Positions 30,083 to 60,807 of a stretch of 64,000 nt of DNA are shown piece after piece. The DNA is taken from positions 62,001 to 126,000 of the forward strand of contig JAEUWP010000360.1 in assembly GCA_018524725.1 (NCBI GenBank). The letters are read 5' to 3'. A model generated the notes under the pieces. It had not been told where the DNA came from. It saw nothing but the letters and a program-made list of their open reading frames with translations, and did no database searches. Every line of letters starts with the position of its first letter. Positions within the stretch are counted from its first letter, which is position 1. A program made the position numbers and the translations under genes. This DNA comes from Podaxis mareebaensis. Taxonomy: Eukaryota > Basidiomycota > Agaricomycetes > Agaricales > Agaricaceae.

Positions 30083-30685
30083 CTACTCATCCGGTCCAGA
30101 GCTCCCAGGTATCAGCTGCATAGAGCGAGGAGGAATAGGCAGTGGGATGAAGGACAGTGATGCACACGGAGATGATCAGAGATATTGTTTCGAAGACACC
30201 AAGGAGGGCACGCACCATGCAGATGTTATTCCCGTTTAACAGCGTCTGCGCAAGCTTCGTCTTCTTCCTTCCTTCCGGCGTCGTTTCACTGTTGTGCAGC
30301 CGCAGATTGTCGTAGCAAACCAAAAACGCCACGCACAGAAGCCAGGACAGAAGAATGAACGCGCCAGATTCTCAATGCCCACCCAAGACGGTGAAACTAA
30401 TGGGACTCACAACTCTGTGACATCCTCTAAAACCATATCTGTATGTGAACAAGCAATCAGAGACCCCAGATGAAAAAGACGGTCGGAGGACTTTTTACTC
30501 ACTGACGAAATCATCGAACCCCAGCAATGTTCCCGAGAACTCTCGATCATTCTTCATGATGACCCAGATTTTCGAACCGATACACCTATCAATGAGTTCT
30601 ATTGCTCATTTAGTCTCGCCGCTGCAGCAATAGCTTGGAGCTCCGAGCTCTGATACGGACCAAGCGGTAGGATTTGTGAAGCCAT
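30083..30685 (-). CDS. LSM5: U6 snRNA-associated Sm-like protein LSm5
   Basis: Five short exons join to a protein of about 90 residues. Exon 1 gives MASQILPL. After a 63-base intron (GTCCG..AATAG) [18 protein letters not shown] and [13 protein letters not shown] follow, the Sm1 motif. Then DMVLEDVTE, and [18 protein letters not shown] and NGNNICM, the Sm2 motif. The last exon is [14 protein letters not shown] at 30083. LSm5 belongs to the Lsm2-8 ring on U6 snRNA and the Lsm1-7 ring in mRNA decay. Because the exons are tiny, gene finders may miss this gene; all junctions are GT..AG. Confidence 0.88.
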
Positions 30686-43387: not shown

Positions 43388-44061
43388 ATGTCCGTCCTTG
43401 CACGCACCGCCCTTCGCACCGCTGTCCGTACCGCGCCTCGCCGATCTCGTGGCTTCTCCCAGGCCGTTACAGAGTCCGAAATCCCCGGACTCACGGCCTA
43501 CCTTGCTGAAGAGAAGGCTCTTGAACACCATGCTGCTCGTGAGTGACTCTGCCGCGTTAAATCGTCTTCCACCTCACTCAATAAATTCACAAAAAATATC
43601 TAGAGACTTCTGACCTCTGGCGAAAGATCAGGTTCGTGTACCACCACTCCTGTTGTGCGAACCCATCCAGGTAGCTCACTCCTATCCATTTCGGAACCCA
43701 GCTTCTATGTGTGTGTTCCTGCCAGTGAGTTCGCCCCGCTTGTTCTGCTCTATTTCGTATCCTAACCGGACATCTTTTGTTTGACAGTTGCCACCTGCAT
43801 CGCATGGGTCTACAACACGGAAACCGAGCACGCTGCCCACATTGAACACATCAAGGAGGAGAACGGCGGCCAGCTTCCCGAAACTCCTGCTTACGACTAC
43901 CTCAACAAGAGGGCCAAGCCGTTCCCCTGGGGCATGAACTCTCTCTTCTACAATCCTCACGTGCGTCCTCAATCTTTTGATATTTCTCAGACTCAGTCGC
44001 TGATGTTGACTATCTGGTTGCAATTCATCAGTCTAACAGGAACATGGAAGAGGAGGCGTAA
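43388..44061 (+). CDS. COX13: Cytochrome c oxidase subunit VIa, mitochondrial
   Basis: Start MSVLARTALRTAVRTAPRR is an arginine-rich mitochondrial presequence. Five exons follow: EKALEHHAA, then ETSDLWRKIS, then FYVCVPA joined to IATCIAWVYN (single membrane helix), then ETEHAAHIEHIKEENGGQLP and YDYLNKRAKPFPWGMNSLFYNPH, and last SNRNMEEEA-stop at 44061. RAKPFPWG..SLFYNP is the conserved C-terminal signature of subunit VIa, an accessory subunit of respiratory complex IV at the inner membrane. Introns at about 43538-43602, 43629-43670, 43731-43788 and 43961-44030. Intact. Confidence 0.93.
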
Positions 44062-59312: not shown

Positions 59313-60253
59313 GGCGGAGGGAAGCAAAGTAGCCGGAGCAGCAACCAGATAAGGGGGGATGCTGAGGAAGAAAGGTCATTGAAGTCACGTTGACCGTGTC
59401 CTCATTAACGCGTCAACAACCATCATCATGACCAAATGTAGACAAGCAAGAGCATCCGGAAGTTGCCGCCTTCGACGATAATTCGTCTTTCTTCTCCGTT
59501 GGTCACCTTCCAATGCTCTGGTAAGTACGTTTCACGCAGCTGTCGCCCGGTTACGTGGTCGCATATCCAATATATCATGTTGTGAGCGAGATTCTATGAA
59601 AGATCAATCTGTTCACACCTATTTATAAGCATGGTGTCATTTCTTGCATGCAAAGCGGGGCGGTGAATTACTACACACCCGGGTCCTTATTTCTGAGACC
59701 CAGGGCAAGGGATCCCCAACTCTGCATGGGGGTTTCTCGCGTTATTGGGGACAGCCTGTTCTCTCGTATGTTATCTCCATGCTTTTGTGAGCTATTTGCG
59801 TGAGGACCGTTCCCTTTGTTTCCAAAGATAAGTCTGAAAAGTTCACAGATTATCGATCATCCCTTATTTTTATTCATGCGAACTCCTCTTTTAGACTTAT
59901 TGCCTACTTTCTGATGCAACATTCGTCGCACAGGCACAGTGGGCGTGCATGTGGGTACTACATTGCCCAGCGTTTATTATCAACCTAACCATGGAAACCA
60001 GCTGACTCGACGGATTACGCTGCCGTCGGCTAATGGTGGAGCTAAACTGCGGCCACAAGGGCTTGCAAGGGTCGCAAAGTCCACATCAGAGGTCTTGCAA
60101 AAAATTGAACAATTAAAACCGGTGCTATACAATGACGAGGAAAGAGTACAAGCCATGGATAAGGGCCAAGAACGTGAAAGGAAGGTCCGTACCATGAAAT
60201 ATACAGATAGCACAAGACAAACTGCGACTCGGTTCATGCCTGAGTTGTTAGAG
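59313..60253. other. Interval between MCM3 and the repeat-peptide gene
   Basis: Holds the MCM3 promoter and the 3' region of the repeat-peptide gene. A plus-strand frame (59939-60325) and a minus-strand frame (59980-60417) overlap here; neither shows a motif, and the first runs antisense into the repeat gene. Confidence 0.45.
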
Positions 60254-60807
60254 TCAGATAGTGCGAACATGAAGAGAAAGAGAGTCCAAACGAACCTGCT
60301 CCAGTCCTTCTCTTTTCCAGTCTGAATTTCCTCGCGCTTTGTTCTCCCCACGTTTCCAATCCGAGTTACCGCGGACATCAGATTCGGTTCTTCTCCAGTC
60401 AGAGTTTCCGCGACCATCTAGCGCCGCACGCTCTGGCAAGGCTGCATCTCTTCTCCAATCCGAGTTTCCTCTAGCCTCCACGCGAGCATCCGCATCGGTC
60501 CGTCTCCAGTCAGAGTTGCCGCGAGCGTCCGCTTCTGACCGCCTCCAATCACTATTTCCGCGCTCGTCAACTTCTCCACGCCTCCAGTCAGAGTTTCCTC
60601 GTCGCCAGTCAGAATTTCCTCTCCGCCAGTCAGAGTTTCCACGGCGCCAGTCACTATTTCCGGCGATAGCACCGGGAGCAGCAGCGGGTTCAACAACCTC
60701 GAACAAGATAAGTTAGCTCAGTGGAAAGACTTGGCAGATGTCCGACCTACTGGAAGCGCTGAGGCAGAAGCAACAAGGGACAGCGACAGGAAAACGGAAA
60801 GTCGCAT
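60254..60807 (-). CDS. Secreted repetitive peptide precursor with Kex2-type sites
   Basis: Exon 1 (60807-60751) encodes exactly a signal peptide, MRLSVFLSLSLVASASALP. A 53-base intron (60750-60698) carries a consensus branch site (GCTAAC) and ends in AG. Exon 2 begins VVEPAAAPGAIA and then has ten copies of GNSDW, each followed by a dibasic pair: eight RR, two KR. The first four copies are back to back. The other six are preceded by short acidic spacers ending in Arg (GEVDER, SEADAR, TESDVR, GENKAR and two longer ones). The protein has 166 residues and a Leu/Arg tail. It has no Cys, no second domain and no Tyr in the core. The layout is that of Kex2-processed precursors: yeast alpha-factor, and fungal RiPP precursors of the ustiloxin/epichloecyclin type. 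That processing happens here is inference. I know no family with this core. Confidence 0.8.
60311..60661 (-). repeat. Ten-copy GNSDW-[RK]R coding repeat
   Basis: Copies start at 60661, 60640, 60619, 60598, 60559, 60520, 60469, 60409, 60370 and 60331. The four at 60578-60661 are perfect-spaced 21-base units with only a few base differences, while the protein core is invariant in all ten. Third-position changes (for example agt/agc and gac/gat) with constant residues point to selection on the peptide. Confidence 0.85.

Follow-up and report, generated by a model that had tools for sequence, protein, structure and literature searches.

Results

Structure of the gene

The window analysed here is a stretch of 64,000 nucleotides (contig JAEUWP010000360.1, positions 62,001 to 126,000), in which a first-pass annotation had described, at 60254-60807, a two-exon gene for a precursor of repeated GNSDW pentapeptides. 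We confirmed this gene at that place, on the minus strand (as are all its features given below), and corrected its model once. The locus is a genuine fungal gene for a secreted protein seemingly built for cutting into ten copies of one pentapeptide. From the start ATG at 60807, exon 1 (60751-60807; 57 nt, 19 amino acids) encodes the predicted signal peptide MRLSVFLSLSLVASASA (60757-60807) and the residues LP. A signal peptide is likely judging by composition (mean hydropathy of +1.85 over residues 3-17), by the predicted cleavage site, A-S-A before L, and by resemblance to two of the relatives described below, P0002 and P0004, which also have a hydrophobic N-terminus (ending ASALPV / AAALPV).

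Intron 1 (60698-60750, 53 nt) has GT-AG ends and reads GTAGGT...GCTAAC...CGAG. At its position P0002 has an 18-codon read-through insert, VCHAAITLLDVLIYIFLK, between LP and VTEP, the residues of which permit GTATGT...AAG, and in P0001 an AAG acceptor is permitted immediately before the start of its second exon. Exon 2 (60296-60697, 134 amino acids) encodes a train of X-Ala/X-Pro dipeptides (exon-2 portion, 60662-60697), the array of ten GNSDW cores with their spacers (60311-60661) and the tail EGLEQ.

Up to this point the two-exon model stood, including exon 1 and the 53-nt intron; its 3′ end, however, is probably wrong. The earlier frame continues to ...EGLEQVRLDSLSLHVRTI, and the final 13 residues of the unspliced frame (VRLDSLSLHVRTI) are probably intron sequence, because a second intron (60240-60295, 56 nt, GTTCGT...CTAACAACTCAG) is very likely present. 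Its candidate donor, CAG followed by GTTCGT, lies at 60295, at the codons for EGLEQ; CTAAC and then a CTCAG acceptor (60240) follow, and exon 3 (60234-60239) would consist of GCA TGA, that is, Ala and stop. Joining the donor to GCATGA, 56 nt on and directly behind CTAACAACTCAG, gives a protein of 154 amino acids ending in EGLEQA; read-through past 60295 would cross the intron, so the protein should not end in VRLDSLSLHVRTI. The relatives bear on this point as well. The similarity of P0001 and P0003, both apparently predicted as intronless, stops right after the Gln of EGLEQ. In a test worked from protein sequences only, by which codons the residues permit, their residues past this Gln allow a GTNNGN donor together with one Ala-stop acceptor within 45-70 nt, giving distances of 56 and 55 nt, respectively. 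At 30540 open-frame positions of the window, taken as a control, an Ala-stop acceptor was permitted in 7.8%, with a donor as well in 0.14%, and with both at 54-57 nt in 0.02%. We infer from this that the homologues lend the second intron strong support. A loose intron scan of the neighbouring MCM gene gave five candidate rows, including a 49-nt one with GTACGA and one of 54 nt whose donor is likewise GTTCGT.

CaaX-type basidiomycete pheromones carry a C-terminal CaaX box and no signal peptide. We ruled out this identity, as had the first-pass annotation, since the protein carries a predicted signal peptide and ends in EGLEQA (in HVRTI without splicing of intron 2).

Core repeats and selection on them

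The ten cores are identical in amino-acid sequence and a dibasic site stands behind each of them (10/10), as first described, with RR in eight and KR in two. Cores 1-4 lie head to tail, and each of the remaining six is preceded by a spacer ending in a single Arg; the spacers are rich in acidic residues (GEVDER, SEADAR, TDADARVEAR, DAALPERAALDGR, TESDVR and GENKAR).

Comparison of all codon pairs among the ten 21-nt units in the coding frame gave 154 synonymous against 16 non-synonymous differences. All 16 of the latter are Lys/Arg exchanges in the leading position of the dibasic pair, which holds Lys in two units and Arg in eight, and GNSDW itself contributes none, whereas the other five frames over the array gave 87 to 158 non-synonymous pairs. 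Serine in the cores is encoded by both AGT and TCN. At minimum, seven codon changes are required within GNSDW, and all are synonymous, compared with 18% expected; the probability of this by chance is about 7e-6 if the relatedness of the copies is ignored. The plus strand is likewise open across the array. As the mostly synonymous variation is seen in the minus-strand frame alone, this is the frame under selection, and the open frame on the plus strand is a by-product.

Relatives in other assemblies

The first-pass annotation had proposed to look for this core in related species. Five relatives (P0001-P0005) emerged when about 5.8 billion sequences were searched with the protein, one of the searches scoring only 7994 candidates sharing most words. 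We counted core sites in the relatives as W[KRE]R. By this count exact GNSDW occupies 10/10 sites in P0001, 5/8 in P0002 (149 amino acids, from a JGI/Logan contig), 3/3 in P0003, which lacks its front part, 4/4 in P0004, and the only site (1/1) of the weak relative P0005 (E 0.35). One GNSDW copy of P0002 is followed by ER (WER in place of WRR), and its three other sites hold TNPDW, VNPDW and a truncated copy; such degenerate cores could mean a decaying copy, a different mix of products, or assembly errors. P0004, from Pluteus cervinus (Agaricales), is a hypothetical protein of 75 residues (BDN72DRAFT_890582). Its hydrophobic leader is followed by LPVAEPAPVA, GEDLRR and four units of GNSDW(R/K)R, with no spacers between the cores.

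Taken over the window and the relatives, GNSDW is exact at 33 of 36 W[KRE]R sites, which indicates that the pentapeptide is kept and that copy number and spacers vary. One spacer departs from this pattern. In the window (DAALPERAALDGR, 60410-60448), P0001 and P0002 it follows the form DAALPERA(A/L)LD(G/N/S)R, with two variable positions only, and the part of it that P0003 retains agrees. Over these four sequences it has changed less than the other spacers, and it may be a product in its own right.

Assignment to the KEX2-processed repeat proteins

KEX2-processed repeat proteins (KEPs) were defined in 2019 by a signal peptide, at least three internal repeats and KEX2 sites between the repeats (PMC6339444), and were surveyed in 2020 (PMC7329392). 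The gene described here has a predicted signal peptide, ten repeats and, behind all ten cores, RR or KR at which cleavage is predicted. On this anatomy alone it almost certainly encodes a KEP, and the signal peptide and dibasic sites bear out the secreted, Kex2-processed repetitive precursor of the first-pass annotation. In addition, a conserved repeated XSDW motif was reported from Basidiomycota in the 2019 study (Le Marquer et al., PMC6339444), and the core repeated here ends in XSDW (NSDW in 10/10 copies). The precursor, thus, most likely belongs, by its motif, to the XSDW group of KEPs. Since KEPs are already a named class and the repeated XSDW motif is already published, the gene does not represent the new family for which it had been a candidate. 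We also considered type G-1 of Umemura, the most widespread type (49 genera), as its identity and dropped it; the text of that survey contains neither 'SDW' nor 'ADW', and its section 6 gives no such motif (PMC7329392).

Mass spectrometry in 2022 detected SGTGEASAADW in shiitake, while Pleurotus gave SGVAADW, both bare and with M or L in front; the -AADW KEPs concerned are Lentinula edodes KEP 2599 and Pleurotus KEP 1091723/1439342 (PMC9769878). As in our gene, their repeats end in Asp-Trp before KEX2 sites, and those of Pleurotus also have X-Ala/X-Pro dipeptides. In contrast, their cores, compared here by description only, are longer, and the Pleurotus dipeptides stand behind dibasic sites, whereas the gene in the window has its train before the first core only (PMC9769878). 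Ascomycete alpha-type pheromone precursors share the logic proposed below, with KEX2, KEX1 and STE13 releasing an unmodified peptide in multiple copies, but the peptide is a different one, and the sexual pheromones of basidiomycetes are of the a-type only (PMC6339444).

Copies in the genome and in databases

We searched the genome (37 Mb, 429 contigs) for further copies. A search for the pattern GN.DW gave 12 matches, ten at this locus and one each on contigs C46 and C160, the latter two in short frames without repeats, and a protein search gave two matches, both at this locus. Two spaced DW-dibasic patterns matched 23 and 21 times, and the reversed pattern, run as a control, three times in each case; 8/23 and 5/21 of these lie at this locus, 5/23 and 6/21 on C78 and C186, and ten and ten are single pairs on other contigs. 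Pattern and protein searches, thus, found no second GNSDW gene, the 10 + 10 single pairs not having been inspected individually, and the gene appears to be single-copy. The matches on C78 (23-690) and C186 (1493-1602) look like a minisatellite with a unit of about 33 bp and stop codons, in which the DNA mimics the Asp-Trp-dibasic pattern.

Beyond this genome, a pattern search of prokaryote genomes gave 48 matches, of which none was confirmed, and viral contigs gave just two single pattern matches, without repeats. Pfam had no match to the window protein and only two sub-cut-off matches, both to P0003, among P0001-P0005; NCBIfam had none for the three relatives tested (P0001, P0002 and P0004). 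A literature text search for 'GNSDW', which did not extend to supplementary tables, returned nothing, and for 'XSDW' PMC6339444 was, by title and the start of the abstract, the sole relevant text among the matches listed.

Processing and predicted product

Between the predicted signal-peptidase site and the first core, the window protein reads LP VV EP AA AP GA IA, so that Ala or Pro is second in six of the seven pairs. Comparable trains precede the cores of the relatives: IA EP AA VA in P0001 (second exon only), LP VT EP AG AA VA in P0002, LP VA EP AP VA in P0004 (up to GEDLRR) and HP VA DP TP VT in P0005. Over these five sequences Ala or Pro takes the second place in 23/27 pairs and the first in 6/27, and none of 20000 shuffles reached 23, in a test whose sequences are related rather than independent and whose pairing frame was chosen by us. 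The published STE13 signature is X-Ala/X-Pro after a KEX2 site and before the core (PMC6339444). Here the train sits before the first core and not behind internal dibasic sites; P0001 has one R-GA-GNSDW. This copy is the exception to a second regularity: Arg occupies position -1 in 18/19 spaced GNSDW copies of the window and P0001-P0003, including all six spaced cores of the window. Trimming of the GA dipeptide in the nineteenth would give the same GNSDW start. The train and the Arg at -1 together predict release of one linear pentapeptide.

We propose the following route. The signal peptide would direct the precursor into the secretory pathway, where a KEX2-type protease would cleave after RR/KR and, less stringently, after the single Arg that ends each spacer. 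A KEX1-type carboxypeptidase would then strip the basic residues, and at the first copy a STE13-type dipeptidyl aminopeptidase would trim away the train of X-Ala/X-Pro pairs. Each of the ten units would thereby yield the same free linear Gly-Asn-Ser-Asp-Trp (calculated [M+H]+ 578.22), and one precursor could supply as many as ten secreted copies. The genome contains matches to the three enzyme families, none traced to a full gene: P_proprotein (KEX2-type) on C109, DPPIV_N (STE13-type) on C120 and 35 to Peptidase_S10 (the KEX1 superfamily). For Agaricomycete KEPs, linear peptides, trimming of the STE13 type and products suggestive of cleavage behind a single Arg have been reported (PMC9769878).

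Alternative readings of the product

Of the readings considered, uniform release of linear GNSDW from a KEP seems to us the probable one. Several points weigh against it. Splicing, secretion, every cut and the linear form are all predicted from sequence; the degenerate copies of P0002, unless they are assembly errors, mean that the core is not immutable; and VV, one of the pairs in the window's train, is not among the sites that STE13 prefers. Most directly, classic KEX2 sites are dibasic, and if the single Arg were left uncut, six of the ten products would be longer, SEADARGNSDW for example. KEX2 would then cut at RR/KR only, with GNSDW released from the head-to-tail units, SEADARGNSDW or DAALPERAALDGRGNSDW from elsewhere in the array, and the long forms having roles of their own, for which the better conservation of the DAALPERA(A/L)LD(G/N/S)R spacer also speaks. 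We regard such long products as a minority possibility. Most spacers drift in all but the retained Arg at -1, the Pluteus protein has no spacers between its cores at all, and Coprinopsis KEPs expressed in Pichia gave products suggestive of single-Arg cuts (PMC9769878).

Departures from a free linear pentapeptide are much less probable. The first-pass annotation had left three options, a linear signalling peptide, a ribosomally synthesized and post-translationally modified peptide (RiPP) with unlinked enzymes, and a surface protein; the linear peptide is the best supported by the sequence, and its signalling part is a guess. A cyclised RiPP of the ustiloxin (dikaritin) type would share with this gene the signal peptide and the KEX2-separated repeats (PMC7329392, PMC6339444), and its UstY-type oxidases could be encoded elsewhere, given eight UstYa (PF11807) matches on four contigs (C58, C61, C291 and C325) and a TauD-type dioxygenase frame about 16 kb away. 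However, the core has no Tyr for cyclisation, and none of the eight matches lies on the gene's own 579-kb contig (C150), which extends to the whole contig the earlier remark that no UstY gene is nearby. Furthermore, DUF3328 genes are near only 103/1680 basidiomycete KEPs (PMC7329392), and according to their description the nearest detected peptides, those ending in -AADW, are linear and carry minimal modification (PMC9769878). Modification of this kind is, thus, improbable. Slightly less credence still goes to an uncut or partly cut wall or surface protein: repeats in secreted proteins can be structural, and Ustilago Rep1 is processed by KEX2, lacks the STE13 signature and yields peptides that attach to hyphae (PMC6339444), but the units here are short, polar and free of Cys, each is followed by a dibasic site, and an STE13-like train is present. 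Finally, the repetitive DNA and its open plus strand would suit a spurious frame over a minisatellite; synonymous variation confined to one frame, homologues in other assemblies, one of them from a named mushroom, and the signal peptide and intron position common to P0002 make this reading next to untenable.

The UstYa (DUF3328) matches themselves are paired, at C291:18629-24931, C58:28005-29529, C61:8375-13239 and C325:578-1191, and each pair could mark a RiPP cluster that has a precursor of its own.

Genomic surroundings

In the 40 kb from position 44000 on (coordinates of the window, continued beyond its end) there are 130 open frames of at least 90 amino acids, of which 20 were tested against Pfam. 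Matches were to ribulose-phosphate epimerase, a DXD glycosyltransferase, pyruvate kinase, MCM helicase (three pieces), WD40 (two frames), a Prp19-like WD40 protein, an SGTA-like TPR protein, an OPT transporter, a TauD dioxygenase, a DIE2/ALG10 frame and, below threshold, an F-box; six of the 20 had no match. Among the frames scanned, the neighbourhood is mostly housekeeping and shows no tight cluster. The TauD/TfdA-type dioxygenase frame lies at 76990-77484, beyond the window.

The OPT oligopeptide transporter gene (C150:134284-136263, or 72284-74263 in window coordinates and, thus, also beyond the window) is 11.5 kb from the peptide gene. Among the OPT matches in the genome it scores highest, in part because introns interrupt it less than they do the others. 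By our grouping the 33 OPT matches form about eight loci in 37 Mb. By chance alone, about 1% of 40-kb looks should show an OPT neighbour, a figure to be read with the fact that the idea of a link arose after the OPT gene had been seen.

Possible function

Peptides from KEPs occur widely among fungi, for the most part without a known function (PMC9769878). Our view that GNSDW is a conserved extracellular signal, to self or neighbours, rather than a toxin is a guess that could fall either way. It is a judgement from the exact core in diverged relatives (taxonomic distance being known for Pluteus only), the apparent single copy and the mostly housekeeping neighbours, which together favour a signal over a fast-changing toxin. 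Against a signalling role, six KEP knockouts in Coprinopsis had no phenotype in axenic culture (PMC9769878). The genome also gave no match to STE2 (PF02116), but the control gave none either, so that this negative carries no proof.

A more specific version would make GNSDW a conserved mushroom self-signal resembling Qsp1, secreted as ten copies from each precursor, re-imported by the linked OPT and, once back in the cell, reporting colony density or controlling development. Pentapeptides are of a suitable size for OPT substrates. The Qsp1 precursor, unlike that of GNSDW, holds a single copy of its peptide, and Qsp1 ends in Trp. Qsp1 of Cryptococcus neoformans is secreted, is matured outside the cell by Pqp1 and takes effect once the oligopeptide transporter Opt1 has imported it (PMC7537855). 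Both peptides are from basidiomycetes and GNSDW is predicted to be secreted; maturation by extracellular Pqp1 is a difference, and the OPT link is here one of position only. A Qsp1-like role is a long shot. Because the core is short and exact and is common to Pluteus cervinus at a different copy number, one synthetic pentapeptide would be a clean test object.

The gene's host is a basidiomycete, probably an Agaricomycete. The genome has 23 STE3 matches, 18 of them on C188, in keeping with a basidiomycete whose pheromone-receptor locus has expanded. These 18 lie at C188:69649-120596, several with internal stops (introns being ignored), in what is probably the mating locus.
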